Position numbers and translations under genes: made by a program. From assembly GCA_001442985.1 (NCBI GenBank), contig LDYB01000025.1, forward strand, positions 1 through 64,000: 64,000 nt of DNA, read 5' to 3'. The notes under the pieces were generated by a model. That model worked only from the letters and a program-made list of their open reading frames with translations. It searched no databases and had not been told where the DNA came from. Positions 1-19,184 of this stretch are shown here, piece after piece; within the stretch, counting starts at the first letter, position 1; every line of letters starts with the position of its first letter. The DNA comes from Armatimonadetes bacterium DC (GTDB taxonomy: Bacteria > Armatimonadota > Fimbriimonadia > Fimbriimonadales > GBS-DC).

Positions 1-650
1 ATTGATTGGCTTGGGCGTCAACTCCCTTAGGGCGACCCGAACCTCTATCGGTAGTGCGGGAACGACCCGATTAATCATGCCGACCCGTCGGGGCTGGATT
101 TTATCGACAACGCCGCGCACTTTGCAGCTGGCTGGGGCGATCGGCTCACAGGCGGGCTGACGAAAGACATTCGGGATTGGCTGTGCGACCTGTTGGACCT
201 GCCGCGCTGGGAGCCGCGCGATCCATGTGATGAATGATATCTGGCGGGTCATGTGGTTGGGGCGGTTCACGATCGGTTGCTCACGCGCGGGGCTGGTGGG
301 GGAGTGGGGTTTGCTAAGAAGAGACATCGCATACCCAACCCTGGAGGAAGGCACGGTGGAACTCGCCATCGTGCTAAAGTACAGCAACGGGCACAGGAAC
401 TTGAAAATGAGGGGTATACTATTGTGACTGGAGGCAGAAAACACCCGGAGCAAGCTGTTCATGACCCAAACAACGGGGGCGATATCGCTATCCTGACATT
501 ATCGCTGAAAAGAATGGGCAGAGGCACTATGAAAACATTGGGCGCAGGAACAAGCGTGGCGATCCTGTCAAACGCGAGCGCGATGCTTTGGATGACTTAG
601 GGAAGTGGTTGCCTCCGGGTACTCCAGTGATTTTTACACCCTACAATTAG
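1..650 (+). pseudogene. Decayed RHS-repeat protein C-terminus with toxin tail
   Basis: Frame 1 encodes an RHS core signature (GDPNLYR, then CGNDPINHADPSGL) followed by the pre-toxin motif AAHFAAGWGDRLTGGLT typical of polymorphic toxins. The frame is broken by TAG at 28-30, TAG at 52-54 and TGA at 235-237; the last probably replaces Trp in DPCDE-W-YLAGHVVGA. Near 481-486 the reading passes to frame 3, which continues through RYPDIIAEKNGQRHYENIG to a stop at 648-650. The tail resembles nuclease-like RHS C-termini in general style, but I cannot name the toxin family. The 5' part lies outside the window. The stops and frameshift make toxin production unlikely. Its base composition is less GC-rich than the housekeeping genes further on, as expected for an acquired cassette. 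Confidence 0.8.
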
Positions 651-658
651 GGGCTAAC

Positions 659-1540
659 ATGGCGACACTTCGCTTCTTCGCTACACCAGAGGAGCAGTAT
701 GAGTGGCTGAAACATTACTTTCAGCCGGAAGTGATGTGGTGCGTGGTGCGCGACAAAACACGCGATCCCTATCGCTGGTGGACGGTACAGTCCCCAGAAG
801 AGCTGACCCTCTTCGCTCACCACGCTCCTCATTCACTTGCTGTGTGCGTGGTGTTAGGGTGGTATGACTTGGGCGAACCTCGGTGGAGAAGGGTATCGCT
901 CGATACAGGAGGCGAATACGAGGATATTGACTTTTTCTCATCACATGGAATTGAGATATATCTTTCGCTTTATTCGTTTGAGGATCAACATCTGCTCTTT
1001 GAAGGTTGGATGGCAGTCGGGCGACCGAGCGATTATCAATCCCTGGGCTATAATCCTGAGCAGTTGTATCGTCGCTTCCGTCAGTTAGAACGCCAGTGGC
1101 GAAAACTGATGGATTGTAGCTATACCCCCGTGTATCGGGGTATTGCCGTGATGCGTGCCGTGCCGGTTCCCTACTCCGCAGGTGTGTCATACGGAGCAGT
1201 GCAGTGGTGTCTCTCAGGGGGACGCCTCAAGTCGGCACTGACCTATGCTGTTTATGATGTGGTTCCAATTCATCAGGCAAAGCAATACGAGCGGGCGCTT
1301 CGTCAGTTTCAGTGTCCTGAAGGCACTCAGCGTTGCCGCCGTTGCAAGGGCGGCGGAGAAATAGTTTTAGAGGGTAAAGTCCAGCGATGTGCGGCGTGTG
1401 ATGGGCGTGGGTGTGCCTCTATAAGCACTAAGTGGTGCCCGCACTGTGAGGGAAGCGGTTCTGTTTTGGTTCCACTCTATTCAGATAGGCTGATGGTTCA
1501 GGATTGTCCCTTCTGTGGGGGGAGAGGCATAATCGCTTAG
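659..1540 (+). CDS. Orphan immunity-like protein with C-terminal DnaJ-type zinc finger
   Basis: 293 residues, in the position of an immunity gene 8 nt after the broken RHS toxin tail. ATG at 659 is preceded by AGGGG; an upstream in-frame start at 605 lies inside the toxin pseudogene and is less likely. Residues 1-220 are soluble, rich in Trp and Tyr, and match no family I recognise. Residues 226-293 contain four CxxCxGxG motifs (CRRCKGGG at 226, CAACDGRG at 244, CPHCEGSG at 260, CPFCGGRG at 283). This is the full set of a DnaJ/Hsp40 cysteine-rich domain binding two zinc ions, but no J domain is present. The role could be toxin neutralisation or a zinc-dependent interaction with a partner. The immunity function is inferred from position only. 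Confidence 0.75.
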   Translation: MATLRFFATPEEQYEWLKHYFQPEVMWCVVRDKTRDPYRWWTVQSPEELTLFAHHAPHSLAVCVVLGWYDLGEPRWRRVSLDTGGEYEDIDFFSSHGIEIYLSLYSFEDQHLLFEGWMAVGRPSDYQSLGYNPEQLYRRFRQLERQWRKLMDCSYTPVYRGIAVMRAVPVPYSAGVSYGAVQWCLSGGRLKSALTYAVYDVVPIHQAKQYERALRQFQCPEGTQRCRRCKGGGEIVLEGKVQRCAACDGRGCASISTKWCPHCEGSGSVLVPLYSDRLMVQDCPFCGGRGIIA

Positions 1541-1612
1541 AATAAAGAGATCGTCTGAAGCTACATTCGTTCGGAAATTGCGATTCAGTGGGGGTAATAT
1601 TATGGAGAAAGT

Positions 1613-1770
1613 ATGTCTCCCAGCGAGCGACTGCAGGAAGCCTTACGCGCGTTTCATTTTCGGCGATGGGAGCCACAAATCCGTCAGGCACTGGCGGCTT
1701 TGCTGGAGTGGCGCCTGACATGATTGCTTTTGTGGATTGGGAAGAGCATGACCAGCTCCTTTCACAGTGA
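1613..1770 (+). pseudogene. Small ORF of unknown function, apparently frameshifted
   Basis: ATG at 1613 opens a 36-codon ORF (MSPSERLQEALRAFHF...) ending with TGA at 1721-1723. It is preceded by GGAGAAAGT. A +1 shift at the stop continues into MIAFVDWEEHDQLLSQ, ending at 1770, so the original product may have had about 52 residues. The first part looks amphipathic helical. No family is recognised. It lies between an immunity-like gene and the next RHS remnant, so it may be a leftover of another toxin or immunity gene. Confidence 0.3.
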
Positions 1771-1875
1771 AGCCATCTCTGTACGCTGGCGGAAGCAGGT
1801 CGCTGTCCTCGAGTCGTGCCTCTGTTCGGTTAGAGTTATACACTGTTGTGGGCATAGGTTCCCTCGCAGCAAGCT

Positions 1876-2030
1876 GGCTCTCTTGTCTATGAGTTGCACT
1901 ATGACAGAGACCTTGCCCCTTGCAGATGGTCCAGTATCATACTGCCGCCCGTGCGTATGACCCCCGCACTGCCCGTTGGCTGTGGAAAAAAAACCGATAG
2001 ATGCAACCTTCGGCGACCTGAATCCGTAGC
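1876..2030 (+). pseudogene. RHS core remnant 2
   Basis: Translated fragments in changing frames spell the end of an RHS core: YELHYDRDLAP, then MVQYHTAARAYDPRTARWLWKK, then PIDATFGDLNP followed by TAG. YDPRTARWL corresponds to the YDPxTGRWLSxDP signature, and GDLNP to GDPNLYRY. The frame changes in the run of eight A residues near 1986-1993. This marks the junction of a second RHS-CT cassette whose toxin part is lost. An intact immunity-like gene follows at once. Confidence 0.65.
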
Positions 2031-2041
2031 ATGAGGTGGCG

Positions 2042-2665
2042 ATGCACCGAGACTTTTGGAGCTATCTAAGACAGCAGTGGGAACGCTTCAGAAAACATTC
2101 CCTGAAAAGGCGTCCCAAAATCACTGCGGAAAGCTATTGGCAGGGTTATCGAATTGAGGCACCCCTATCTTACGAAGAAGAACAGCTTCCATACCAGCTA
2201 CTGTCGACAAACTTCGTATGGTACTGGTCAAGCCGATGGCTTCGAGAAGTCACGGAGGTGGAACTCGCTACAGGTTTACCTGTAGTTCGTCCTTTTACGC
2301 GCTTGGGTGAGGGTACGGTTACAGAGATGGTTGCTGACTTGCGGGCGCGGGACGCTTCTGGGGACATGCGAACGATTGAGTGGGTTGGGGTTGAGTGGGA
2401 GGCTGCGCGGGGCTGGGTTGATGAGCAGCCGCTTTTGGAGAGCCTTCGGATGTTTGCGCGAGAGGGACAGGGACCTGTTCAGATCGTGGTGAGCGAACTT
2501 GGTGATGCGGTATATGCTGAGATTTTTCTGCCGAAGCATGTGCCCCTGCCAGTCCAGCAGGTTCTGAGCCTGTTTGGATTAGAGTTTAGTTTAGAAAAAG
2601 CAAATGTCATTCGCCACAATAAAAACTGGGATTTGACATTTGAGTTCCCGTCAAGCGCGCACTGA
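2042..2665 (+). CDS. Hypothetical protein, probable orphan immunity protein
   Basis: 207 residues. ATG at 2042 is preceded by GAGG about 5 nt upstream; GTG at 2036 would overlap that site. The protein is soluble, with a basic N-terminus (residues 1-30), many Trp residues and no signal peptide or membrane segment. No family is recognised. The position directly after an RHS core remnant and before another one suggests that it was the immunity gene of a lost RHS toxin. It is intact, unlike the toxin parts around it. The immunity role is inference. Confidence 0.6.
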   Translation: MHRDFWSYLRQQWERFRKHSLKRRPKITAESYWQGYRIEAPLSYEEEQLPYQLLSTNFVWYWSSRWLREVTEVELATGLPVVRPFTRLGEGTVTEMVADLRARDASGDMRTIEWVGVEWEAARGWVDEQPLLESLRMFAREGQGPVQIVVSELGDAVYAEIFLPKHVPLPVQQVLSLFGLEFSLEKANVIRHNKNWDLTFEFPSSAH

Positions 2666-2897
2666 CTCCGCCTTCGGCGCCCCGAACCTCTATCGGTTTC
2701 CGACCGCAGACTTGCCCCCAAAGATTCACAGCGGCCGCTGGAACCTGCAGGTGCTGGACAACGAAGCCCACAAGCGTGCCCATCGTCGCCTGAGGCGTAT
2801 GGAAAACGCGCTCCGAACCAACACCAATCGGTATACTATCACCGCGCGCTTTTTGAACAACCTGCGCAGAGACCTGGAACAGCCGTGTGAGGAGTGA
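2640..2897 (+). pseudogene. RHS core remnant 3 with short C-terminal toxin-like tail
   Basis: The frame contains FGAPNLYRF, a relic of the RHS GDPNLYRY signature with nucleotides nearly identical to the first remnant at 34-51. About 66 residues follow (LPPKIHSGRWNLQVL, EAHKRAHRRL, ending DLEQPCEE) to TGA at 2895-2897. The His-rich start of this tail could be part of a nuclease toxin, but the fragment is too short to classify. No upstream RHS core is attached. The reading from 2640 overlaps the end of the previous gene, so only the part after about 2665 is meaningful. An immunity-like gene starts 5 nt downstream. Confidence 0.55.
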
Positions 2898-2902
2898 GCG
2901 AG

Positions 2903-3433
2903 ATGTTCGGCTGGATCAAATGGCTATGGAAACAGCTCCAGATGGAGAAAGTGAAGTCGCAGCGGTGGGAAGCACAGAGGCAGCGAATTGCGCGTTTGAG
3001 TGTAGAGCAGGCGCGGGAAGAAGCACTGCAGGTGTTGCAGGATGAGCGCGTGTTTCGGCTGGTGCCGGCTTCGGGGGTACGGGATGCGCAGATTTTAGCG
3101 CAACTCCCTGCAGATGTGCAGGAGCTGGCGGTTCAGTACGACCGGATTGAACTGGTGGGGACAGAGGACGAGTGGCGTGGAGCGGACGGGCTGGATTTTT
3201 CCCAGATTACCCCTGCGGAGTTACGGGAGGGGTTTTTACGAATCGGGCGGCTGGCGCCGGACATGGATGTGTATACAGAGGTGTGCATCCGCCCTGGAGA
3301 AAAAGGGGTATATGAGTTGTACTTAGACGCAGCAGAAGTTCGCGAGTATGCGAGTGTGTACCACTGGATATTGAACGAATATTGGGTTGACCGTGTTCTG
3401 CGTGAGGTGGAGGAGGAGTTTGGGGAGGGGTGA
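2903..3433 (+). CDS. Hypothetical protein, probable orphan immunity protein
   Basis: 176 residues. ATG at 2903 has GAGGAG (2889-2894) at proper distance; GTG at 2894 overlaps that site. An N-terminal amphipathic, charged segment (residues 1-45) is followed by an acidic globular region ending REVEEEFGEG. There is no signal peptide. Family unknown. It sits directly behind RHS remnant 3 and shares the acidic, Trp-rich style of the other two immunity-like genes here, without clear sequence identity. Function is inferred from position. Confidence 0.6.
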   Translation: MFGWIKWLWKQLQMEKVKSQRWEAQRQRIARLSVEQAREEALQVLQDERVFRLVPASGVRDAQILAQLPADVQELAVQYDRIELVGTEDEWRGADGLDFSQITPAELREGFLRIGRLAPDMDVYTEVCIRPGEKGVYELYLDAAEVREYASVYHWILNEYWVDRVLREVEEEFGEG

Positions 3434-3676
3434 GTTGCTGGTCGATCAAACTGAAGGTAGCCAGCGCACTCTGGATTGGCGGTTGGCAGCAGAGTTGCTT
3501 GTCAACGCGGCGTTCTATGAGTAAAAGGGATGGGATGCTGAGACACATGGCACAGGCAGCCATAAAAACATCCCCCGCACCCCAGCGGGAAAATCGAAGT
3601 CAGCAATTTACCCCCAATTTTGCCCAATTTGCCCTCTTTGTGCGCCAAAAATGCAGGAATTCGCGAAAGGGTAGGG
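3434..3676. other. Intergenic stretch without a convincing gene
   Basis: About 240 nt before the cold-shock promoter. Frame 3 reads ELLVDQTEGSQRTLDW... to TAA at 3522-3524, a 30-codon coding-like scrap that may be the start of another lost cassette gene. The rest (3525-3676) is A/C-rich and holds nothing recognisable. Confidence 0.4.
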
Positions 3677-3682
3677 TATAAT
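3677..3682 (+). promoter_or_regulatory. -10 box of the cold-shock gene
   Basis: Perfect TATAAT in the context AGGGTATAATG, the pattern seen at many promoters in this window. No good -35 box is visible 16-18 nt upstream. It implies a 5' leader of about 57 nt, which fits a cold-shock mRNA. Confidence 0.6.
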
Positions 3683-3745
3683 GCTCCTGTATCACATCGG
3701 GGGGTATGGTCTACCCGTCCATATTCACCCGGAAGGAGGTTAGCA

Positions 3746-3946
3746 ATGCAAACGGGTAAAGTTAAGTGGTTCAACGACCAGAAGGGCTACGGGTTTATCG
3801 TAGCCGACGACGGTCGTGAAGTCTTTGTGCACCACTCCGCCATCAACATGTCGGGGCACAGGACGCTGTACGAAGGGCAGTCTGTGGAGTTTGAGGTCGT
3901 TCAGGGACCGAAGGGCTTGCAGGCACGCAATGTTGTCCCGAAGTAG
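3746..3946 (+). CDS. csp: Cold-shock protein (CspA family)
   Basis: 66 residues, the usual length of a single cold-shock OB-fold domain. It contains both RNA-binding motifs: [12 protein letters not shown] (RNP1, residues 7-18) and VFVHHSAI (RNP2). It binds single-stranded RNA and DNA and prevents mRNA secondary structure. ATG at 3746 follows a strong AAGGAGG. The gene stands alone with its own -10 box and terminator. Confidence 0.95.
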
Positions 3947-3975
3947 AGCAGTCTCTAAAGACGGAAACGACCGCG

Positions 3976-3997
3976 AAGGGGGCTTTTATGCCCCCTT
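3976..3997. terminator. Bidirectional terminator between csp and the MFS gene
   Basis: Stem AAGGGGGC (3976-3983), loop TTTTAT, stem GCCCCCTT (3990-3997), followed by CTTT. It lies directly at the stop codon of the convergent transporter gene and can serve both strands. Confidence 0.75.
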
Positions 3998-3999
3998 CT

Positions 4000-5271
4000 T
4001 TAGTTCGTAGAAAGCTCCCGCTCGCGCACGCTCCGCAGGAGCCACGCTCCCAGCAGCAGGTAAACCGGGATCGTCATAAACCCCCAGCGCCAGCCGACGC
4101 CCATGCCGTAAGCCTGATTGATCCAGTCGCCCAGCGCGCCCGCAATCAGCGGCGCAATCACCTGCGGCACGGTCATCGAGATGTGCCAGATGGCCATATA
4201 GCGCCCCGACTCATGGTTGGGCACAAGGTTGCTGGCAAGCGCCCAGTCCACCGCCGAAAACGCGCCCCACGCGAAGCCGAACACCCCCGCCAGCAGGTAG
4301 ACCCACCCCATCGCATTCGCGAACAGAAAGAGCAAAGTCGCAAGCCCCATCATCCAGACCGTCTGGAAAATCACCCATTTTTTGCTGGTGCGGTCGCTCA
4401 GAACCCCCGCCCACCAGTTGCCCAGCACGCCCGTGAGCGTGGCGATGGTCATCACGAGAAACGCGAAAAAGGGCGCCTGAGTGCCCAACCCCATCGTATC
4501 GCGCAGGTAATACTCCAGAAAGAAGAGAACCGTGTAAAAGCCCAGATTGAACGCAAAGCGCGACAGCACCACCAGCCGGAAGTTGGGGTAATCGTTCATC
4601 AAAATATCCACGAAATGGCGCCAGTGGAGCCGTGCTTCGTCAGGGTGATTCGGGAGCCACGCGGGTTCGCGCAAACCCAGTACCGTCCACAGCATCGTGA
4701 GCAGAAGACAGGCGACCAGAATCGCGCCCACAATCAGTAAGCGTGTAGCATAAGGTAAGCCTGCGAACAGAATCGGCGGCTCGTTCAGCGTCAGCCCTGC
4801 CAGCGCCAGCCCTATCAGATTCCCGACCAGAGTCATCATGCCCATATACGCCGACGCCAGCCCGTGCCGTTCAGGAGGCACATAATCGGGGATCACCGCC
4901 TGATAGGGACCGTTCGCCCAGTTCAGAAAGAGCTGAATCGCCACGAAGCAAGCAACCAGCAGGGGGAAACTCGGCGCGACCATAAAGAGCAGGATGAAGG
5001 GCAGGCTCAACAGCGTGCCCCAGAAGATAAACGGACGCCTGCGCCCCCAGCGCGAGGTACTGCGGTCGCTGATGGGACCCGCAATCAGCTCAATCACCGT
5101 GGAGATAAAAGCGCCCGCCGCCGAGAGGACCCCCAGCATCGTGCCCTTGATTTCGGGGGCAACCAGCTCCGCCGTGCGCACCTGCATCACAATCGTCAAA
5201 AACGCCGCCCAGTGGACGCTAACCCCAAACCAGAAGATGCTGATTGCCCAGTAGTTGATACGCCCTATCAT
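4000..5271 (-). CDS. MFS transporter
   Basis: 423 residues with about 12 hydrophobic segments; an inner-membrane secondary carrier. The loop after TM2 carries GPISDRSTSRWGRRRPFI, the MFS signature of the sugar-cation symporter type (GPH/SLC45-like). A second loop, GVLSDRTSKKW, sits at the equivalent place in the C-terminal half. The substrate cannot be told from sequence; a sugar is plausible. The gene is alone and convergent with csp. A TATAAA on the minus strand (5284-5289) ends 12 nt before ATG 5271, so the leader would be very short and no Shine-Dalgarno sequence is visible. Confidence 0.88.
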   Translation of the reverse strand: MIGRINYWAISIFWFGVSVHWAAFLTIVMQVRTAELVAPEIKGTMLGVLSAAGAFISTVIELIAGPISDRSTSRWGRRRPFIFWGTLLSLPFILLFMVAPSFPLLVACFVAIQLFLNWANGPYQAVIPDYVPPERHGLASAYMGMMTLVGNLIGLALAGLTLNEPPILFAGLPYATRLLIVGAILVACLLLTMLWTVLGLREPAWLPNHPDEARLHWRHFVDILMNDYPNFRLVVLSRFAFNLGFYTVLFFLEYYLRDTMGLGTQAPFFAFLVMTIATLTGVLGNWWAGVLSDRTSKKWVIFQTVWMMGLATLLFLFANAMGWVYLLAGVFGFAWGAFSAVDWALASNLVPNHESGRYMAIWHISMTVPQVIAPLIAGALGDWINQAYGMGVGWRWGFMTIPVYLLLGAWLLRSVRERELSTN

Positions 5272-5336
5272 CGTTGTGAGATATTTATACCTGACATCAC
5301 TAACAGAGGGTGTTCGAGAAGCGCCGCCTCGTGCCT

Positions 5337-5400
5337 GACGGCTTCAGCTGCTCTGTTGCCAGGATGGGCGCGAGTGTTCCGAGAACCCCCTCCGTGAGGT
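5337..5400 (-). repeat. MITE-like repeat, copy A, part 1 (left of the IS)
   Basis: Begins GACGGCTTCAGCTGCTCTG and runs to CCCCCTCCGTGAGGT. It continues at 6847 beyond the insertion sequence. Together the parts correspond, inverted, to 9661-9886. See copy B for the full structure. Confidence 0.7.
5390..5400. repeat. Target-site duplication, left copy
   Basis: CTCCGTGAGGT, directly outside the left terminal inverted repeat. An identical 11 bp lies outside the right one at 6847-6857. This length is within the range known for IS4-family insertions. Confidence 0.8.
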
Positions 5401-5420
5401 CTTAAAGGGGTAGGTTTTTT
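5401..5420 (+). repeat. Left terminal inverted repeat of the IS
   Basis: 20 bp, perfect match to the inverted right end. A close relative, CTTGAAAGGGTAGGTTTTTT, occurs alone at 9303-9322. Confidence 0.85.
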
Positions 5421-5468
5421 GGGGGGGTAGCCCGACACACAAAAAAAGAGAGCCGCCGACCGATGGGA

Positions 5469-5474
5469 TACAAT
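5469..5474 (+). promoter_or_regulatory. -10 box of the transposase gene
   Basis: TACAAT, seven nt before ATG 5482. Transcription would start at or next to the start codon, so the message is probably leaderless, and no Shine-Dalgarno is present. Confidence 0.5.
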
Positions 5475-5481
5475 CCCTACT

Positions 5482-6633
5482 ATGCACACAACGACGGCTC
5501 CCGAACAACTGGAACAACTATACCTCACCATCCGCACCCATCTGCCACACCTCACAAAACCCCAAGCCTACACCCTCGCCCTCTACAGCTTCGGTATCGC
5601 CGCGACCAGTCCCTGCGGACTGACCACCCTCGCGACTTGCCTCGCCCTGCTCCTCCACCAACCCTTCAACACCGTCCGCCAACGCCTGCGCGAATACTAC
5701 AAAGACGCTCCCCACAAAAAAGGAACCCACCGACGCGACCTTGACCCCGCCACCTGCTTCGCGCCCCTGATGCGCTGGATGACCCGCCTCTGGAGCGATA
5801 CACGCCTGATACTTGCTTTAGACGCCACCACCCTCGGACACCGCTTCACCGCCCTCACGGTCCGTGTGCTGTATCGCGGACGCGCTCTGCCTGTTGCGTG
5901 GAAGATACTGCCTGCCACGCAACAGGGTAGTTGGCGTCCGCACTGGGAAGCCCTGCTGCGCGCGCTGCAGGGGAGCATCCCTGCCCACTGGACGGTGTTG
6001 GTCTGCGCGGATAGAGGGCTGTACGCCCCGTGGCTGTTTGAGTGGATTACGGCGCTGGGGTGGCATCCGTTTTTGCGCATCCACGCACAAGGGCAGTATC
6101 CTCTGGAGAACGACCCGACCGTGCGCGAGTTGGCGACGGTGGCGCCGTGCGCAGGCACGCACTGGTGCGGGCGTGTGGTGTGTTTCAAAGCGAACCCGTT
6201 GCCGTGTACGCTGCTGGCGTGCTGGGATACGGGGCACAAAGAAGCGTGGCTGATTGTGACCGACCTGCCGCCCGATGAGGTGTGCGCGGAATGGTATGCG
6301 AAGCGTGCGTGGATAGAGAGCGGGTTTTCGGACTTGAAGCGTCGGGGCTGGCAGTGGCACAGGACGCCGAGGCAGGATGGCGCGCGTGCGGCGCGTGTGT
6401 GGTTGGCGCTGGCGATCGCGACGCTGTGGGTAATGAGTGTTGGGGGTTCTGTGGACGAGGCGCGGTTGGGGGTTCGGGGCAAGGTGAGTTGTTTTCGGTT
6501 GGGGCGGCTGGCGTTGTGGGCGCAGTGGCTTTCGGGGGATGCTGGGGCGTGGGGTGTGTTGTCGGATTGGGAGCGTTCATCGCGTGCGCCGCCGCGTCGG
6601 GGCAAGTCGGTTGGGGGTGTGCGTTGTGTGTGA
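5482..6633 (+). CDS. IS4-like DDE transposase
   Basis: 383 residues. It carries the RNase-H-fold triad expected of IS4-type enzymes: Asp in LALDATTLGHR, Asp in LVCADRGLYAPWL, and Glu in the Y-(2)-R-(3)-E-(6)-K signature YAKRAWIESGFSDLKRRGW. It cuts and joins the IS ends. The coding strand is C-rich at the beginning and G/T-rich after about 6400, unlike neighbouring genes. An overlapping frame starting at 5463 is a shadow. All catalytic motifs look intact. The family assignment rests on the YREK-type motif and the duplication length; the exact IS subgroup needs a comparison with ISfinder. Confidence 0.9.
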   Translation: MHTTTAPEQLEQLYLTIRTHLPHLTKPQAYTLALYSFGIAATSPCGLTTLATCLALLLHQPFNTVRQRLREYYKDAPHKKGTHRRDLDPATCFAPLMRWMTRLWSDTRLILALDATTLGHRFTALTVRVLYRGRALPVAWKILPATQQGSWRPHWEALLRALQGSIPAHWTVLVCADRGLYAPWLFEWITALGWHPFLRIHAQGQYPLENDPTVRELATVAPCAGTHWCGRVVCFKANPLPCTLLACWDTGHKEAWLIVTDLPPDEVCAEWYAKRAWIESGFSDLKRRGWQWHRTPRQDGARAARVWLALAIATLWVMSVGGSVDEARLGVRGKVSCFRLGRLALWAQWLSGDAGAWGVLSDWERSSRAPPRRGKSVGGVRCV

Positions 6634-6826
6634 GGCGCGTCTGTGTGCGGTGTGGGGCAGGCGTGCGCGGTTGTTGGCGCGTGGCAGGTGTGTGTATGGG
6701 TGTTGGGGGGTGGGGTATGGCTGATGTGTGGCTTAGCTGGGCGCGTGTTTGGGGGAGACGGCTGGGGTGACGAGGCGTTTTTCAGGGTTTTTGGCGGTGT
6801 TGGGGAGGTTGGTTTGTGCCCCTGCG

Positions 6827-6846
6827 AAAAAACCTACCCCTTTAAG
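6827..6846 (-). repeat. Right terminal inverted repeat of the IS
   Basis: Exact reverse complement of 5401-5420. Confidence 0.85.
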
Positions 6847-7017
6847 CTCCGTGAGGTTCCCCCTGCTGCGCAGGGGGAACCGAAACCTGCCACGCACGCG
6901 GGCATCCACCCTCACGGCGACCCCGTTCTCGGTTCCCCTCGCTTGCGGGGGGAACCTGAAGGAGGGGGGCATCGGTGTTCCAGCAGGCGTCTTTGCAACA
7001 GAGCAGGTTCACCCGTC
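6847..7017 (-). repeat. MITE-like repeat, copy A, part 2 (right of the IS)
   Basis: Starts with the second copy of the 11-bp target duplication. It then has hairpin GGTTCCCCCTGC/GCAGGGGGAACC (about 6855-6884), a spacer of about 46 nt, a second hairpin GGTTCCCC/GGGGAACC (about 6933-6957), and ends TTGCAACAGAGCAGGTTC-ACCCGTC. Without the IS and one duplication, copy A measures about 224 bp. Confidence 0.65.
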
Positions 7018-7057
7018 CCGCCCAAAAGCGATTTTTCGAACATCCTCGCCAAACCCC

Positions 7058-7087
7058 TTGACAAAACTCCCTGACTCATGATATTCT
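7058..7087 (+). promoter_or_regulatory. Promoter of the WD40/dockerin gene
   Basis: TTGACA at 7058-7063, an 18-nt spacer, and TATTCT at 7082-7087. It lies just outside the repeat and 21 nt before ATG 7109. Confidence 0.65.
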
Positions 7088-7108
7088 TAAACAGCGGAGG
7101 TGGCTGGA

Positions 7109-9247
7109 ATGAAACGAGAGTTGGTGTTGAGTGGAATGACGCAGATTACACGCGTCGGTTTGCTGTTGTCGATTGCTCTGTTGCCCATTCTGATGTGGGC
7201 GCAGGGTCGCCCCGACATCCTGTGGACAAGAGAGAATGCAGAATTCCGCTCCGCGTCCTTCTCGCCTGATGGTCAAACCCTTGCCCTGAGAAGCGGATTC
7301 GGAATACACCTGTACCAACTGCCTGACTACTCTCTGAAACGCACATTGACGGTTTCCCTCTTCGATACTGCCTATAGAATCCCGCCAGTCTTTTCGCCCG
7401 ATGGGCAGTATGTAGCAGCTGCAGGTTATTGGAGCGATGGCTGGGTCGTCCGCGTGTGGCGCACTTCAGGGGGGCAGCCCGTTCATAGTTTTCCTTATCC
7501 GGGGTCTCCCGACACTTCTCTTAGCGTACGAGCCATAGCGTTTACTCCTGACGGACGCCACCTGCTGGTTTATGTAGTTCAGAGGTCAGGCTCGGGGAGC
7601 ACCGGTAACATTGACACTTGGCGTCTCTCGGACGGGGTCCGGGTTCGGAGCCTTTCGTCCCTACCATACTCTGAACTTGCTGCTTTCTCATCCGATAGTC
7701 AATACCTGGGCGTTGCGGGGTATGGTGGAGCCAGCGTGCGGCGCGTTTCTGACGGCACTCTTGTCCGTTCGTGGGACTTCGAGAGTAGATTTACAGCTCT
7801 TTGCATTACACTCTCGCCTGACGGACGAGAGATGGCAGTAGGTGGTTACATAACGCCTTCGAGTTACTCACAACCACAACGGGGTATTATTTACGTTTTT
7901 CGAATACCCACAGGGGGGGTTCTGCAGTTCGACCACACCTCCGACCACCCCTACGCAGGGGTCACTTCTGTCGCTTACTCGCCGAGCGGGGTGCTTGCGT
8001 CCGCGGGATATTATGCATCCTCGTATGATAACCCCACAATAACCGTGCGCATTTGGGACACAGGAAGAACCCTCAACCTCGGCTCTGCTTCTGGGTCTAC
8101 TGTTGCGTTCGTAAGCTTCGCACACGACGGTCAGAGTCTGGTAACCTGTTCTAGATATGGCGCCCAGATATGGCGATTGTCTGACCTCACGCTTGTGCAC
8201 ACTATCGAGAGAGAAGGTTTCAACAATCGCGTCGCTTTTTCTCGTAATGGCGAGCTGATCGTATCATCCAGCAGCAACGAGTCTGTTGTTCGGTTGTGGG
8301 ATGTTGAGAGCGGCGCGCTCCGTTTCGTTCTGGAACACGAAGGGGTTCAGGATGCGGTTCTATCCCCCAACGGTCAGTATTTGGCTTCTGCTTCGAGTTC
8401 ACCAGGATTTATCAAGCTCTGGCGCACAGCGGACGGCGCGCTGATTCGCACAATCTTTCCTGGAGGATACCGTATTGCCTTCTCTCCCAACAACCTCTAC
8501 ATAGCGGCAGCCAGCGGCTCGCTGGTCCGATTATGGCGCATCGACGGTCTGCTGGTACGGGCGATGGATATCTCCCCTTTGGTAGAGACTAGTATCGCTT
8601 TTTCGCCCGACGGTCAGCTCCTGCTCGTAGCAGGACGGAGTAGTTCGAGCCCGGCGCAGTACCAAGCACAGATATGGCGCTTGATGGATGGCACGCGAAT
8701 CCGCACCATTCCGCTGGACGCTCACCCGCTTTGCGTCGCCTTCTCGCCTGATGGTCAGTATATGGCTATCGGAGATGATGTTTCGAGGTTCGGGCGCGTG
8801 CATGTGTGGCGGGTGTCAGACGGCGCCCTGTTCCGAACCTTCAGCGCCCATCTGGGCGGAGTTCGGGGGATAGCCTTTTCAGCCGATGGGCGCTACCTGA
8901 TTTCAGGAAGCGCTGACGCCACCATCAGCATCTCGCAGCTTGCTGACGGCGCGCTGATGCAAATCTACGATCAGGACACCGCCTCAGGCATCGCCTCACT
9001 GGCGGCTGCCGCCACCCACGATAGGCTCTTTGCTTATACCCGCGACGACGGCACTCTCGTGGTAGCGCGCTATCGGATATGGGGCGATGTGGACGGCGAC
9101 GGCTGTGTGAGCGATAGCGACCTTGCACAAATCCTGTTCGCCTTTGGGCAGACAGTGGAGGACGCCCCTGAAGACATCAGTCGGGATGGAGTGGTTGATG
9201 ACTTGGACCTGATTCTCGTGCTGGTGTATTTCGGCAGCGGGTGTTAA
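7109..9247 (+). CDS. Secreted WD40 beta-propeller protein with dockerin-like tail
   Basis: 712 residues. ATG at 7109 follows GGAGG at 7096-7100. A signal peptide is seen (hydrophobic LLLSIALLPILMWAQ, cleavage after about residue 32). The body has many WD40-type blades with the motif FSPDGQ...A..........VRLWR, repeated about ten or more times (for example FSPDGQYVAAAG, FSPDGQYMAIGD, FSADGRYLISGS). The C-terminal 55 residues hold two dockerin-like calcium loops, GDVDGDGCVSDSDL and ISRDGVVDDLDL. The protein is exported and probably works in extracellular protein-protein contacts; whether a cohesin partner exists is not visible here. It is a single-gene unit with its own promoter and a downstream hairpin, between two repeat blocks. 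Confidence 0.85.
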   Translation: MKRELVLSGMTQITRVGLLLSIALLPILMWAQGRPDILWTRENAEFRSASFSPDGQTLALRSGFGIHLYQLPDYSLKRTLTVSLFDTAYRIPPVFSPDGQYVAAAGYWSDGWVVRVWRTSGGQPVHSFPYPGSPDTSLSVRAIAFTPDGRHLLVYVVQRSGSGSTGNIDTWRLSDGVRVRSLSSLPYSELAAFSSDSQYLGVAGYGGASVRRVSDGTLVRSWDFESRFTALCITLSPDGREMAVGGYITPSSYSQPQRGIIYVFRIPTGGVLQFDHTSDHPYAGVTSVAYSPSGVLASAGYYASSYDNPTITVRIWDTGRTLNLGSASGSTVAFVSFAHDGQSLVTCSRYGAQIWRLSDLTLVHTIEREGFNNRVAFSRNGELIVSSSSNESVVRLWDVESGALRFVLEHEGVQDAVLSPNGQYLASASSSPGFIKLWRTADGALIRTIFPGGYRIAFSPNNLYIAAASGSLVRLWRIDGLLVRAMDISPLVETSIAFSPDGQLLLVAGRSSSSPAQYQAQIWRLMDGTRIRTIPLDAHPLCVAFSPDGQYMAIGDDVSRFGRVHVWRVSDGALFRTFSAHLGGVRGIAFSADGRYLISGSADATISISQLADGALMQIYDQDTASGIASLAAAATHDRLFAYTRDDGTLVVARYRIWGDVDGDGCVSDSDLAQILFAFGQTVEDAPEDISRDGVVDDLDLILVLVYFGSGC

Positions 9248-9272
9248 CGCCTTTGCGCTGAGATGACAGCGT

Positions 9273-9323
9273 AGCCCCTGCTCCCGCATGCGGGAGCAGG
9301 GGCTTGAAAGGGTAGGTTTTTTT
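9273..9323 (+). terminator. Strong hairpin after the WD40 gene
   Basis: 14-bp perfect stem AGCCCCTGCTCCCG (9273-9286), loop CATG, and its complement (9291-9304). It is followed, after 12 nt, by seven T (9317-9323). The distance between stem and T-run is longer than in a classical terminator. The sequence after the stem resembles the IS terminal repeat. Confidence 0.55.
9303..9322 (+). repeat. Solitary sequence similar to the IS terminal repeat
   Basis: CTTGAAAGGGTAGGTTTTTT against CTTAAAGGGGTAGGTTTTTT of the IS at 5401. No transposase or second end is nearby. Confidence 0.5.
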
Positions 9324-9441
9324 GAGAGGGGCGCCGTCTCATGCGTTCCTGAAGTGTGTTGGGGCACGCCTCCGCCCTGACGGCTGAAGCCGTTCCTATA
9401 ATACCAATCTGCTGGTCATAGTTCGTAAAACGGCGGTTTAG

Positions 9442-9493
9442 GGAGTGCGGAAGCTCCGCTTCCGCGCTTGCTGAAGCTGCGCTTCAGCACTCC
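9442..9493. repeat. Y-shaped palindrome (three-way junction)
   Basis: Outer stem GGAGTG (9442-9447) with CACTCC (9488-9493). Inside are two perfect hairpins: GCGGAAGC-TCC-GCTTCCGC (9447-9465) and GCTGAAGC-TGC-GCTTCAGC (9470-9488). It looks like a cloverleaf-type interspersed repeat. Confidence 0.7.
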
Positions 9494-9580
9494 ATAATAG
9501 CAGACCGCAGGCAACAACACGCATCTGCAGGGGTGCGCGAGTCATTTGCGAAGTCTGACCCGCCGATTGGTATAAGACGA

Positions 9581-9648
9581 AGCCGACCTGCGTCGGCTCA
9601 GCCCCCAAACCCCCGTAAACGGGGGTTGATAGCCAGCGCAGGCTGGCT
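9581..9648. repeat. Three consecutive hairpins
   Basis: AGCCGACCTGCGTCGGCT (9581-9598), AACCCCCGT-AA-ACGGGGGTT (9608-9627) and AGCCAGC-GCAG-GCTGGCT (9631-9648). No T-run follows the first two; the last is followed by TTGTTTGTT. Likely a REP-type intergenic repeat. Confidence 0.6.
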
Positions 9649-9660
9649 TTGTTTGTTAGG

Positions 9661-9886
9661 AACGGCTTCAGCTGCTCTGTTGCAAAGATGCCCGATGGAA
9701 CCCACGATGCCCCCCTCCTTCAGGTTCCCCCCGCAAGCGAGGGGAACCGGGGCGAGGGCTTCCGTGTGTCTGTATCGGTCAGCACGAGGCAGGGTTCGGT
9801 TCCCCCTGCTTCGCAAGGGGAACCTCACGGAGGGGGTCTGGGAAGGCTTACGCTCCTATCCTTGCAACAGAGCAGCTTCAGCCGTC
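9661..9886 (+). repeat. MITE-like repeat, copy B (uninterrupted)
   Basis: About 226 bp with imperfect terminal inverted repeats. The left end reads ACGGCTTCAGCTGCTCTG, the right end in reverse complement ACGGCTGAAGCTGCTCTG, both continuing TTGCAA. Inside are two hairpin blocks with GGTTCCCC...GGGGAACC (about 9723-9748 and 9797-9824), separated by about 47 nt. Copy A at 5337-7017 is the same unit in the opposite orientation, interrupted by the IS. There is no ORF of its own, so mobility would need a transposase in trans. Confidence 0.65.
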
Positions 9887-9892
9887 GCTCTT

Positions 9893-9981
9893 TCAGGGGG
9901 CATCGTGGGTTCCAGAAGGTATCTTTGCAACAGAGCGGCTTCACCCGTCCTGCTCAGAGGTGATTTTCTGAACATCCTCGC
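9893..9981 (+). repeat. Partial third copy of the MITE-like repeat
   Basis: Matches the right end of copy A, including TTGCAACAGAGCGGCTTCA and sequence beyond it up to GAACATCCTCGCC, which also occurs at 7038-7050. It lacks the hairpin block. Confidence 0.55.
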
Positions 9982-10006
9982 CCTGCCCTGACTTCTCTGT
10001 TTTGGG

Positions 10007-10012
10007 TATAAT
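10007..10012 (+). promoter_or_regulatory. -10 box of the DUF4190-like gene
   Basis: TATAAT in the context TTGGGTATAATC, 20 nt before ATG 10033. No convincing -35 box. Confidence 0.55.
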
Positions 10013-10032
10013 CTCGCACGAGGGGGACGGAA

Positions 10033-10341
10033 ATGGCGGTTGTGTCGCTGGTGCTGGGAATTGTGGCGCTCATATCGCTGCTGACGGGCTACTTTGCTCC
10101 GTTCTGCATTCCGCTGCCGCTGGTGCTGGGGGTGGTGGCGTGGGTGCTGGGCAAAAACGCGCTCACCGAGATTGAGGCAGGTCAGGGCAACCCGAGCGAG
10201 AAAGGGATTGCCCAGGCGGGGATGATTATGGGGATTATCTCCGTCGTTCTGAGCGTGCTGGGGTTCTGTTGCCTCACGGCGGGCATACTCGGTTTTCTGG
10301 GCTTGAGCGCCTACTTCGGGAACGGGGCGCCCTGGTGGTAA
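10033..10341 (+). CDS. Small membrane protein, DUF4190-like
   Basis: 102 residues with two long hydrophobic segments: VVSLVLGIVALISLLTGYFAPF near the N-terminus and AGMIMGIISVVLSVLGFCC in the second half. Between them lies the cytoplasmic-type loop GKNALTEIEAGQGNPSEKG. This arrangement is typical of the DUF4190 family, whose function is unknown. It has an upstream purine-rich AGGGGGACGG. The next gene starts 11 nt after its stop and may be read through or from its own -10 box. Confidence 0.75.
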   Translation: MAVVSLVLGIVALISLLTGYFAPFCIPLPLVLGVVAWVLGKNALTEIEAGQGNPSEKGIAQAGMIMGIISVVLSVLGFCCLTAGILGFLGLSAYFGNGAPWW

Positions 10342-10344
10342 AAT
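10339..10344 (+). promoter_or_regulatory. -10 box for a leaderless reductase transcript
   Basis: TAAAAT overlapping the stop codon of the upstream gene, seven nt before GTG 10352. No Shine-Dalgarno is present upstream of that GTG. Confidence 0.45.
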
Positions 10345-10351
10345 TATCCCC

Positions 10352-11350
10352 GTGAACGAGGCACTGTACGACATCACGATTATCGGTGGCGGACCCGTGG
10401 GGCTGTTCGGCGCGTTTTATGCGGGTCTGCGCGGCATGAAGACCAAAATCATCGACAGCCTGCCCCAGCTGGGCGGGCAGCTGACCGCGCTCTATCCCGA
10501 AAAATATATTTACGATATGCCGGGCTTTCCCGAAGTGTTAGCCAAAGACCTCGCCGAGCAAATGATTCGGCAGGCGATGCGCTTCAAGCCCACCGTTTGC
10601 CTTGAAGAGCGCGCCGAGCATCTCACCCGGCGGGATGATTACTGGATCATCACCACCAATAAGGGGGTAGAGCATGCCACGCGCACGGTGGTTATCTGTG
10701 CAGGCGCGGGCGCCTTCACACCGCGCAAGCTGAACGCCGAGGGAGTGGAAGCGTTTGAGGGTAAAGGGGTGTATTACGGCGTGCGCGACAAAGCCCAGTT
10801 TGAGGGCAAGCGCCTGCTGATTGTGGGCGGTGGCGACTCGGCGGTAGACTGGGCGCTGAATCTCTACCCGATTGCCCGCGAGGTGGTACTGATTCACCGC
10901 CGTGACGAGTTCCGGGCGCACGAGCAGAGCGTCGCCCAGTTGCGCCAGTCGCCTGTGCGGATTCTAACCCCCTACGAACTGCGTCGTGTGGAAGGCAACG
11001 GCAGGCTGGAACGCGCCGTTATCTTCCACAACAAAACGCAGGAAGAAGTAGAGCTGCCCGTGGACGCCGTAATTCTCAATCTGGGCTTTGTGGCGAGCCT
11101 GGGACCCATCAAAACCTGGGGGCTGGAGCTGGAGGGCAACGCCATCAGGGTAGACCACCTGATGCGCACGAACCTGCCGGGCGTCTACGCAGCGGGTGAT
11201 GTGTGTACCTACGAGGGCAAACTCAAGCTGATTGCCACGGGCGTCGGCGAGGTGTGTATCGCGGTGAACCACGCGAAGCACACCATAGACCCCAGCGCGA
11301 AGATGTTCCCCGGCCACAGCAGCGACATGACTTTACCTGCGCTGGAGTAG
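10352..11350 (+). CDS. Ferredoxin--NADP+ reductase type 2 (TrxR-like)
   Basis: 332 residues, the usual length of the YumC-type flavoprotein. The FAD-binding motif ITIIGGGPVGLFGAFYAG is at residues 8-25, followed by PQLGGQLTALYPEKYIYDMPGFP, diagnostic for this family. The NADPH-binding motif is IVGGGDSAVDWALNL, and the C-terminal FAD contact is GVYAAGDVC. The CxxC of true thioredoxin reductases is absent, which supports ferredoxin reduction. It transfers electrons between NADPH and ferredoxin in the cytoplasm. GTG start, with a -10 box 7 nt upstream and no Shine-Dalgarno. Confidence 0.93.
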   Translation: MNEALYDITIIGGGPVGLFGAFYAGLRGMKTKIIDSLPQLGGQLTALYPEKYIYDMPGFPEVLAKDLAEQMIRQAMRFKPTVCLEERAEHLTRRDDYWIITTNKGVEHATRTVVICAGAGAFTPRKLNAEGVEAFEGKGVYYGVRDKAQFEGKRLLIVGGGDSAVDWALNLYPIAREVVLIHRRDEFRAHEQSVAQLRQSPVRILTPYELRRVEGNGRLERAVIFHNKTQEEVELPVDAVILNLGFVASLGPIKTWGLELEGNAIRVDHLMRTNLPGVYAAGDVCTYEGKLKLIATGVGEVCIAVNHAKHTIDPSAKMFPGHSSDMTLPALE

Positions 11351-11359
11351 GAAGTACCC

Positions 11360-11390
11360 TTGCAATTCCAAAGGGGGTTTAGGGTATAAT
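11360..11390 (+). promoter_or_regulatory. Promoter of tRNA-Ala
   Basis: TTGCAA at 11360-11365, a 19-nt spacer and a perfect TATAAT at 11385-11390, 11 nt before the mature tRNA 5' end. Confidence 0.6.
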
Positions 11391-11401
11391 AACCCCTGCG
11401 T

Positions 11402-11477
<76 letters not shown>

Positions 11478-11484
11478 AATTTTT

Positions 11485-12915
11485 TTATGCCCCGATCAGC
11501 CGCTTGAGGATGTGATGCCCCTCTTCTGCCAGGTGGCGCGCCGCGTCGGGCGTTTGCGCTTCGGCGTAGATGCGCACCACAGGCTCCGTGCCCGACGCCC
11601 GCAACAGCAGCCATGTGCCGTCTTCCAGAATGTGCTTGATGCCGTCCAGCGTATCGCGTTTGGCAACGGGCACATCCAGCACGCGCTCCAGCGTCAGGTC
11701 TTTGAGCCGCTCGCGCAGTTCAGGCATCTGCGAACGCTCGAAGTGGGCGTCGATGCGGTGATAGAAGTAGGGTCCCGTGATTTCAAACACCGATTCCACC
11801 AGCTCGGAGAGCGATTTGCCTGAGGTCGCCATCGCCTCCAGCAGGAGCATGCCCATCATCACGCCGTCGCGCTCCACCATGTAGCGCGTGATGCCGATGC
11901 CGCCGCTCTCTTCGCCGCCCATCAGGATATCTTCCTGAAGCATCTTCTCCACGATGAACTTGAAGCCAATTGGCGTGACGGACAGGGGCAGCCCGTAATG
12001 CTCGCAGAGGCGGTCAATCATCTGGCTGACGGAGAAAGTTTTCACCACGCCGCCCCGCCAGCCGCGGCGTTCCACAAGGTGGCGGAGCGTGATGGCGAAA
12101 ATGCGATGGCTGTCCACGAAATTGCCGTGTTCGTCCACTGCGCCCACGCGGTCGCCGTCGCCGTCGATCGCGATTCCGATATGCGCTTTCAGGTGGCGCA
12201 CGGCGTGAATCAGTTCTTTGAGGTTATCGGCAATCGGTTCGGGGTTCACGCCCCCAAAATAGGGGTTGCGCTCTTCGCGCAGAGCGTGGACCTCAATCCC
12301 CAATCGGGAGATGAGCGACTTGAGGTAGCCAGCGCCGGAGCCGTGCATCGCATCGGTCACCACGCGGAATGGCGCTTCATGCAGTTCGTCGATACGGATG
12401 AATTGATGCACATGCTCCAGATAATCGGGCACAGGGTCCATGGTTCGGATGAACGTTCGCGTTTCAACGGGTTCGGTATAGCGGGTGTAATCTGCCATCA
12501 GGTCGTTGAGGTGCTTTTCGATATTGGCGGTAATATCGGTCAGCGCCGCGCCGCCGTAGTGGGGTTTGAACTTGATGCCGTGAAAGATGGGCGGGTTGTG
12601 GCTGGCGGTGAACATCACCGCGCCCTGAAGGTGGTTTTTAATCACGCCATATGCCGCGGCGGGCGAGGAAACGGGCTTTGGCGTCAGCCACACGGGGAAG
12701 CCGTGATGGCTCAGCACTTCTGCCGCCGCCTGCGCAAATACCTCCGATTGCGCCCGACAGTCGTAGGCGACCAGCACGCCCTCGCCGGGCGGACGCGCGT
12801 CCAGCAGGTGTCGGGCAATCGCATGGGTTACAAGACGCACATTCGCAACGGTGAAATCGTCGGCAATTACGCCACGCCAGCCTTCCGTACCGAACTTAAT
12901 CTGTGGAACGCCCAT
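11485..12915 (-). CDS. Phosphoglucomutase/phosphomannomutase family protein
   Basis: 476 residues with all four signatures of the alpha-D-phosphohexomutase superfamily: active-site loop FTASHNP with the phosphoserine, metal loop DGDGDRVGA, sugar-binding GGEESGG, and phosphate-binding RASGTEP near the C-terminus. It interconverts hexose 1- and 6-phosphates and could feed the nucleotide sugars used by the glycan genes at the other end of the window. It lies 4 nt after the TsaC gene in the same direction, so an operon folB-tsaC-mutase is likely. Preference for glucose or mannose cannot be told. Confidence 0.92.
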   Translation of the reverse strand: MGVPQIKFGTEGWRGVIADDFTVANVRLVTHAIARHLLDARPPGEGVLVAYDCRAQSEVFAQAAAEVLSHHGFPVWLTPKPVSSPAAAYGVIKNHLQGAVMFTASHNPPIFHGIKFKPHYGGAALTDITANIEKHLNDLMADYTRYTEPVETRTFIRTMDPVPDYLEHVHQFIRIDELHEAPFRVVTDAMHGSGAGYLKSLISRLGIEVHALREERNPYFGGVNPEPIADNLKELIHAVRHLKAHIGIAIDGDGDRVGAVDEHGNFVDSHRIFAITLRHLVERRGWRGGVVKTFSVSQMIDRLCEHYGLPLSVTPIGFKFIVEKMLQEDILMGGEESGGIGITRYMVERDGVMMGMLLLEAMATSGKSLSELVESVFEITGPYFYHRIDAHFERSQMPELRERLKDLTLERVLDVPVAKRDTLDGIKHILEDGTWLLLRASGTEPVVRIYAEAQTPDAARHLAEEGHHILKRLIGA

Positions 12916-12919
12916 AGCC

Positions 12920-13951
12920 CTAAGAGTTTACCTCATGCGCGGCGCGCTCAAGGCGGTCGCGTAGCGCCCGCGCCAGTCCCTCGGCGGGGGGCAGGGGACA
13001 GAGGATCGCATGCACCTGCTTCGATTCGAGCCAGCGCAGTCCCTCAAAGAGCCGCCGCGCCAGCGTGTCCCAGTCGCCCCAGGGACCCCAGTTGAAGCGC
13101 ACCACGCGCGGGTCGTCGGGCGTGAGCCAGCCTTCGGGAATCATCACGCCGACAATCGCATACTGGGTCAGGGCGTCTTTCACGGCGCCGAACAGCGTGT
13201 TGGGGTCGGGCGCGGTCAGCAACACGGGCACGCGAGGCGCGTAGTGGCGTGGCGCCGTGCCCGGCGAGGGCAACGGCGTGCCCTCGGCAGGGCGCTCGCC
13301 GAAGACACGCACCGTCCCAATCACCGACTCAATCGCCTCCAGCGGGATGCCTCCGGGGCGCAACAGCGTGGGCGGCTGGGTGGTCAGGTCTACAATCGTC
13401 GATTCCACGCCGACAGGGGTCTCGCCGCCGTCCAGCACCATCTCAATCTCGCCAGCGAGGTCGTCCAGCACATGGTCGGCATTCGTGGGGCTGGGGCGCC
13501 CGAAGCGGTTCGCGCTGGGCGCGGCAATCGGCGTCTGGCTATACTCGATCAACGCGCGGGCTACCGGGTGAACAGGCATCCGCACCGCCACCGTGTCGCG
13601 CCCTGCCGTGATAATATCGGAAACCCATTCCGAGCGCGGCAAAATCAGCGTCAGTGGACCGGGCATGAAGGCGTCTATCAGCGCTTCGGCGAGGGGCGGA
13701 ATCTCGCGCACCAGCAGGCGCATCTGATTACGGTTGATCACATGCACAATCAGGGGGTCCCACGCAGGACGGCGCTTTACCTCATAGATGCGTCGCACAG
13801 CGAGGGGGTTCAGCGCGTCCGCGCCCAAGCCGTACACGGTCTCGGTGGGGAACGCCACCAGCCCGCCCGCGCGGATGACCGCCGCCGCCTGCCGAATGAG
13901 CGGCTCATCGTGTGCTGGGTCGCCCGTCAAAATCAGCCGCTGTGTGAGCAT
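12920..13951 (-). CDS. tsaC: L-threonylcarbamoyladenylate synthase (Sua5/TsaC)
   Basis: 343 residues. The N-terminal YrdC domain shows GGLVAFPTETVYGLGADA, KRRPAWDPLIVHV and the SANRFGRPSPT region. The extra 130 residues at the end are the Sua5 domain, so this is the long form. It makes threonylcarbamoyl-AMP from Thr, bicarbonate and ATP for the t6A37 modification of ANN-decoding tRNAs. ATG 13951 follows the folB stop (TGAGATG) and has GGGAG upstream. An earlier ATG at 13984 would overlap folB by 32 nt and is less likely. Confidence 0.93.
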   Translation of the reverse strand: MLTQRLILTGDPAHDEPLIRQAAAVIRAGGLVAFPTETVYGLGADALNPLAVRRIYEVKRRPAWDPLIVHVINRNQMRLLVREIPPLAEALIDAFMPGPLTLILPRSEWVSDIITAGRDTVAVRMPVHPVARALIEYSQTPIAAPSANRFGRPSPTNADHVLDDLAGEIEMVLDGGETPVGVESTIVDLTTQPPTLLRPGGIPLEAIESVIGTVRVFGERPAEGTPLPSPGTAPRHYAPRVPVLLTAPDPNTLFGAVKDALTQYAIVGVMIPEGWLTPDDPRVVRFNWGPWGDWDTLARRLFEGLRWLESKQVHAILCPLPPAEGLARALRDRLERAAHEVNS

Positions 13952-13952
13952 C

Positions 13953-14315
13953 TCACCGCTCCCGTGCAATTCGGACTCCGGCATTTTCCATCACGGTTCC
14001 CGCGGGGGGCAGGCGTTTGCGCAGGGTTAACTCCACGCGCTGCACCGGGGGAAAGGTTTCCAGAATCTCCCGACATAGCCGTTCGGCAAGCGCCTCCATC
14101 AGGCGGTATCGCGTGCCCGTGCCAATCGCAACGATGCGCTGGGCGACTTCGGCGTAGTTCACCGTATGCTCCAGCTGGTCAGTGCGCCCCGCCTGGCTCA
14201 AATCCAGCTCCAGCACCACATCCACGCGATAGCGATGTCCTATTGCCTGCTCCTCGTCGGGGACGCCGTGATAACCATAGAACTCGATTCCTTCCAGCAG
14301 AATCTGGTCGGGCAT
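13953..14315 (-). CDS. folB: Dihydroneopterin aldolase
   Basis: 120 residues, the standard length. Motifs are FYGYHGVPDEEQAIG (substrate pocket), HTVNYAEVAQRI and LMEALAERLC, the last containing the conserved Glu. It acts in folate synthesis, turning dihydroneopterin into 6-hydroxymethyl-dihydropterin. The start is placed at ATG 14315, because the longer reading from 14336 runs through a TATACT -10 box at 14325-14330, nine nt upstream of this ATG. First gene of a probable operon with tsaC and the hexomutase; no other folate gene is nearby. Confidence 0.93.
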   Translation of the reverse strand: MPDQILLEGIEFYGYHGVPDEEQAIGHRYRVDVVLELDLSQAGRTDQLEHTVNYAEVAQRIVAIGTGTRYRLMEALAERLCREILETFPPVQRVELTLRKRLPPAGTVMENAGVRIARER

Positions 14316-14324
14316 CGAGAGGGA

Positions 14325-14330
14325 AGTATA
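14325..14330 (-). promoter_or_regulatory. -10 box for folB operon
   Basis: TATACT on the minus strand in the context GAGGTATACTT, directly after the stop codon of the upstream gene. The nine-nt distance to the ATG implies a leaderless message. Confidence 0.5.
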
Positions 14331-14332
14331 CC

Positions 14333-15420: not shown

Positions 15421-15469
15421 CTCCACCTTATCCTACGAAGGAGCGCAGGGATTGGTTGCAAGGAGGGAT

Positions 15470-16345: not shown

Positions 16346-16355
16346 CGCCGTTATT

Positions 16356-19151: not shown

Positions 19152-19171
19152 GCTTTGCTCCCTGCAGAGGG

Positions 19172-19177
19172 TACAAT
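19172..19177 (+). promoter_or_regulatory. -10 box of nagA
   Basis: TACAAT in the context AGAGGGTACAATA, seven nt before ATG 19185; a leaderless transcript is implied. Confidence 0.5.
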
Positions 19178-19184
19178 AAAGGCG

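Follow-up and report, generated by a model that had tools for sequence, protein, structure and literature searches.

The window analysed here is a stretch of 64,000 nucleotides, positions 1 to 64,000 of contig C25 (LDYB01000025.1) of Armatimonadetes bacterium DC (G000), and it begins at the contig start with broken pieces of Rhs toxin cassettes and open reading frames (ORFs) resembling immunity genes. Positions 1 to about 3524 are very probably the distal end of an orphan array of Rhs C-terminal toxin tips (Rhs-CT) and immunity genes, in a genome of the Fimbriimonadales (Armatimonadota). The G000 assembly comprises 2.85 Mb in 26 contigs and is probably of metagenomic origin. The relatives searched were 291 genomes of the phylum, including Fimbriimonadales bacterium KatS3mg018 (G004; AP024673.1), which belongs to the same family, and Chthonomonadia bacterium Ch118 (G179), which belongs to the same phylum.

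The rhs gene and the array behind it

Contig ends in the assembly overlap by exactly 77 bases, and through these overlaps reversed C23 leads into C24 (3,081 bp) and C24 into C25. The first-pass annotation of the window had proposed that a functional RHS gene would be found to the left, and an rhs ORF of 1,814 codons without a stop does lie there, spanning the join of reversed C23 and C24. Profile searches identified an RHS core (TIGR03696, E=2e-20) and a Tox-REase-7 tip (E=1.9e-20) in it, and its N-terminus resembles a Sec signal by eye. The gene after the tip has HEAT repeats (E=5.9e-14) and is likely the immunity gene of this tip.

Downstream of the rhs gene partial cores are repeated, on C24 and at 31, 1935 and 2664 in the window, each time with a different tip. 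C24 holds one further cassette 3' of the intact gene, consisting of a core, a toxin, an 89-aa ORF and a two-frame relic, and its toxin frame is interrupted by a stop at C24:2087-2089. The relic, starting within C24 2806-3034, has its 3' end (IDWLGRQLP and a stop) at positions 1-30 of the window on the forward strand. No intact homolog of the relic was found and tblastn gave no match between it and the neighbouring 89-aa ORF; we infer its relic status and keep it as probable. The successive displaced toxin tips postulated in the first-pass annotation are borne out by this arrangement, in which Rhs tips and immunity genes follow an rhs gene that is intact. The three core relics that it listed in the first 3433 positions were also recovered (31-96, 1935-1982 and 2664-2699; Table 1), each followed by an open ORF. 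The third relic is weak alone (E=0.13), and the toxin tail fused to it belongs to a full-core toxin in G004. Positions 1819-2028, which include most of the second, are collinear with 19419-19629 of the G004 array.

Table 1. Features of the array end (window positions unless C24 is named)
Feature	Position	Strand	Remarks
Open 89-aa ORF	C24:2491-2757		behind C24 toxin frame
Probable frameshifted immunity relic	C24:2806 to window 30	+	frames C24:2806-2922 and 2921-3031 run into 77-bp overlap
RHS core remnant 1	31-96	+	GDPNLYR-stop-CGNDPINHADPSGL; TAG at 52-54; tblastn to core consensus E=7e-12
Orphan toxin 1	97-650	+	pre-toxin linker and putative restriction-endonuclease-like C-terminus; frame reading
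ORF1, putative immunity 1	659-1540	+	293 aa; AGGGG shortly before ATG; C-terminal DnaJ-like CxxC zinc module
immS, broken immunity-like gene	1604-1883	+	N-terminal piece, frameshift, in-frame TGA, ~106-codon deletion, C-terminal piece
RHS core remnant 2	1935-2030	+	YHTAARAYDPRTARWL ... GDLNP-stop; internally deleted; E=1e-6 (1935-1982)
ORF2, orphan immunity gene, imm2 family	2036-2665	+	209 aa from GTG (207 from ATG)
RHS core remnant 3	2664-2699	+	DSAFGAPNLYRF (GAPNLYRF); fused to toxin-3 tail; aligned DNA of G004, G179
Toxin-3 remnant	2697-2897	+	final 66 codons of HNH-like toxin, in frame; intact in G004, G179
ORF3, immunity to toxin-3 family	2894-3433	+	179 aa from GTG (176 from ATG 2903); overlaps toxin stop
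3' end of another immunity-like gene	3435-3524	+	last 30 codons, LLVDQTEGSQRTLDWRLAAELLVNAAFYE-stop; remainder deleted
Cold-shock-like gene	3746		named by eye; marks return to ordinary chromosome

Toxin remnants and open reading frames

None of the four orphan toxin cassettes on C24 and in the window is whole, and the damage differs among them. The stops and the frameshift noticed in the first-pass annotation apply to toxin 1, which has a stop at 235-237 and a frame break at about 475-483 and is preceded by the core stop at 52-54, but toxin 2 was deleted rather than decayed and toxin 3 was shortened by a clean internal deletion. The linker of toxin 1 shares 91% nucleotide identity with C17:111-306, and the last 55 aa of toxin 1 have matches (46-50%) in G047, G025 and G051, at the tips of open RHS frames; there was no match to Pfam and the enzyme class was assigned by eye. 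Toxin 2 is gone altogether, and ORF2 begins right behind core remnant 2. Toxin 3 lost the part bearing an HHxNPLxGHPGG motif, while in G004 it is whole, an open frame of 239 codons attached to a full core. From the toxin-3 remnant through ORF3 (2697-3441) the nucleotide identity to G004 is 96%. The toxin-3 family likewise had no Pfam match, its HNH-like class being given by eye.

It is highly improbable that these defects arose in sequencing or assembly and that the toxins are really intact. A metagenome assembly with collapsed repeats invites such a reading, and the one break in the toxin 1 frame is known from the assembled sequence. The first 77 bases of C17 are the same 77-mer as window 3365-3441; beyond it C17 matches the G004 sequence 3' of ORF3, whereas C25 continues differently. 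The end of ORF3 is therefore present in two assembly contexts, which would reflect either an array end that exists twice or two strains, and the C25 sequence past 3441 may not be the sole continuation. However, the adjoining rhs ORF shares this sequence type and is uninterrupted over 1,814 codons, hundreds of bases present in G004 have been deleted in the case of toxins 2 and 3, and one junction bears an 8-bp microhomology. Compared with an intact relative the main defects are structural, and they are not the erroneous stops that the first-pass annotation had regarded as fatal to its own proposal.

ORF3 has homologs in seven other genomes of the 291. The amino acid identity is 97% in G004, 74% in G179, 49% in G001, 37% in G184 and 34% in G007, and in all five the homolog comes directly after an Rhs core carrying an HNH-like toxin, the last part of which matches the toxin-3 remnant. 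Homologs of ORF2 sit behind Rhs tips in G007 and G179. ORF2 and ORF3 are in families placed directly behind Rhs toxins of other genomes, and the comparison with RHS-linked immunity genes of relatives, suggested in the first-pass annotation, succeeded for these two by synteny; ORF1 was assigned by position only, and its role as an immunity gene is a guess. The length of the ORFs is weak evidence, as an open frame of at least 170 aa also arose in 139 of 300 versions of the stretch generated by a first-order Markov model. We rejected length as an argument for ORF2 and ORF3, which are supported by homology instead; the ORF1 frame (about 311 codons) was the sole one to exceed the longest random frame (296 codons).

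An alternative is that unrelated cargo genes, lying by chance between RHS fragments, account for the three ORFs. None of them matched a Pfam, NCBIfam or PADLOC family above cutoff, and the matches to PDB folds were not significant (best E=0.25 for ORF3, with a predicted local distance difference test score, pLDDT, of 90.7, and 0.033 for ORF2, from a poor model with a pLDDT of 68.4). The DnaJ-like zinc module of ORF1 (Pfam PF00684, E=2.6e-6, under cutoff) would also suit a cargo gene. We nevertheless consider this alternative quite unlikely, because the homologs of ORF3 lie right behind one toxin family in five other genomes and those of ORF2 lie behind Rhs tips, which is the RHS context whose absence from relatives would have spoken for chance.

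Outside the zinc module, no homolog of ORF1 was found in the 291 genomes save a weak 66-aa match in G088 (E=1.8e-4), and searches of plasmids (by tblastn) and of a collection of genome contigs gave nothing past the module. A kinship of ORF1 with the immunity genes behind the toxin-1 homologs in G047 and G051 was rejected at an hhalign probability of 0.2%. Membership of ORF3 in SUKH, suspected by eye, had no profile or fold support, and neither ORF2 nor ORF3 matched any named immunity superfamily, SUKH or other, by profile or fold.

Loss of toxins, loss of immunity genes and selection

According to the published model, new toxin-tip/immunity modules would recombine onto the conserved rhs core and push older modules downstream. 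Because displaced tips are without the secreted rhs front, their toxin parts would be free to be cut down, whereas the immunity ORFs of the array carry their own start sites. We suggest that the three open ORFs protect against the toxins of neighbours, which is most likely for ORF2 and ORF3, judged from synteny, and a positional guess in the case of ORF1. Immunity genes are also lost, through deletions that join short repeats or shared cores, and the whole array thus turns over, probably with a bias to toxin loss.

Support for selection on orphan immunity comes from elsewhere in the arrays. An immunity-like gene that we call immR, which no toxin separates from its neighbour upstream, was found in three contexts (C21, the end of C17 and G004), and its ratio of nonsynonymous to synonymous substitution rates (dN/dS) was 0.14-0.21 at dS 0.28-0.82. 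These values show purifying selection acting on an immunity gene that is without a toxin. Orphan Rhs cassettes also occupy a second stretch, C17:1-11.3 kb; two of its five toxin cassettes are open, and it holds nine open immunity-like ORFs, some of which are stacked without toxins between them. On C24 and in the window, four of four orphan toxins are broken compared with three of seven immunity-like genes (Fisher p=0.19). When C17 is included the numbers are 7/9 and 3/16 (p=0.009), a tally that comes from our own frame reading and has an ascertainment bias, since immunity genes without homologs are noticed only if open; counting open immunity ORFs alone inflates the apparent asymmetry between toxins and immunity genes.

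Several observations weigh against a simple retention of immunity. Within this stretch or at its edge, three immunity-like genes have been broken (1604-1883, 3435-3524 and, probably, the one ending at 30), and because of this immunity was not kept in general. Intact counterparts exist for the first of them, immS, at C17:2599-3210 (by tblastn) and in G004, and the second corresponds to the last part of an ORF of 215 codons that follows an Rhs tip in G004; its remainder was lost through an 8-bp GTTGCTGG microhomology. For ORF3 against G004, dN was 0.019 and dS 0.089 (p=0.002), with an overall dN/dS of 0.21, but the changes on the G000 lineage, polarised with G179, amount to four synonymous and two nonsynonymous in ORF3 (179 codons) and to three and one in the toxin-3 remnant (66 codons), without a contrast between them; the changes since the deletion are too few to reveal selection. 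ORF1 has no close homologs and a codon-usage score near zero. Finally, the left extension of the array was made through the 77-bp overlaps only, and the joins rest on these.

Some of these points would equally be expected under neutral decay, in which random deletions wear away a junk array and the immunity ORFs are pieces as yet unhit. The three broken immunity genes agree with it, as do the few changes in both the toxin-3 remnant and ORF3 since the deletion and the fact that immunity genes were largely detected by their openness. However, the constraint on toxin-less immR in all three contexts and the open state of nine of nine immunity-like ORFs in C17:1-11.3 kb speak against neutral decay, which we regard as rather unlikely. 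Decay of toxins with immunity retained by selection, as claimed in the first-pass annotation, is only partly supported. The immunity candidates that it named are indeed open, but the three further immunity-like genes are not; selection is upheld by immR, but not by a stretch in which three of seven such genes are broken and the toxin-3 deletion is too recent. The same cassette is intact in G004 and cut down in G000, which makes selection on orphan immunity testable with strain-level data.

Possible exchange with a relative and comparison with known systems

In both G000 and G004 an acs gene (named by eye) lies beside the Rhs array (C23, read in reverse, rcC23:9083-11044; G004:C1 near 1.437 Mb), with 93.5% identity over 1,962 bp. 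The array cassettes are mostly about 90-98% identical to those of G004, compared with about 70-84% for ordinary gene segments (window 3440-20000), an insertion sequence (IS) element aside. These levels suggest a recent exchange of locus pieces between genera, possibly of the locus with its flank. It is conceivable, and we propose it only tentatively, that ORF1 to ORF3 represent immunity families without described relatives, forming a toxin-less protective repertoire in Fimbriimonadales that moved between genera with whole pieces of the Rhs locus.

A DDE transposase (window 5482-6633; PF01609, E=2.9e-11) lies in an IS of which copies of 94% identity are present in G004. At window 9401-9576 there is an element of about 176 bp resembling a miniature inverted-repeat transposable element, with the ends ATACCAATC...GATTGGTAT and no Rfam match; about 30 copies occur in G004 and few in G000, and here it is inserted in another dispersed repeat (pieces 9380-9407 and 9571-9600). 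Window 9720-9830 has inverted GGTTCCCC...GGGGAACC repeat units, with similar pieces elsewhere in the window and in G004. Two more RHS loci were identified in G000, from C1 into reversed C12 and from C11 into C21. A dockerin-like DVNxDGxVDDADL insert stands ahead of the core in rhs genes (that of C23/C24 and L011:69-4937), the latter at E=0.006 to Dockerin_1, under cutoff.

The locus is of a known kind and not a new system, as the process has been published (Jackson et al. 2009; Poole et al. 2011; Kirchberger et al. 2017); no account of Rhs in Armatimonadota came up in our literature search. Jackson et al. (2009, PMC2935791) described dissociated Rhs tips 3' of rhs genes in Enterobacteriaceae, with the same order of an intact rhs gene and then partial cores with non-homologous tips, and with tips exchanged between genomes. 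In contrast, the array described here is from Armatimonadota, its rhs N-terminus was judged Sec-like by eye, and none of the displaced tips in the window is whole. Poole et al. (2011, PMC3150448) described orphan cdiA-CT/cdiI and rhs-CT modules, which likewise form arrays of toxin-CT and immunity pairs after a full-length gene. In these, orphan toxin genes are mostly without translation starts and apparently not produced, whereas orphan immunity genes can be expressed and orphan immunity was produced; the orphan toxins tested there were still active, unlike the broken ones in the window. The orphan immunity arrays of the type VI secretion system (T6SS) in Vibrio cholerae, formed by sequential effector displacement (Kirchberger et al. 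2017, PMC5361080), share the displaced effector, the immunity genes stacked downstream and the lateral acquisition, but they are T6SS clusters rather than Rhs arrays, and broken immunity genes are also visible here. Orphan immunity genes of the recombinase-associated acquired interbacterial defence (rAID, PMC12247911) are similarly kept without an effector, although no recombinase was seen in the array stretch read here and protection by our ORFs is putative. With this locus, a classic array of Rhs tip displacement is placed in the Armatimonadota.

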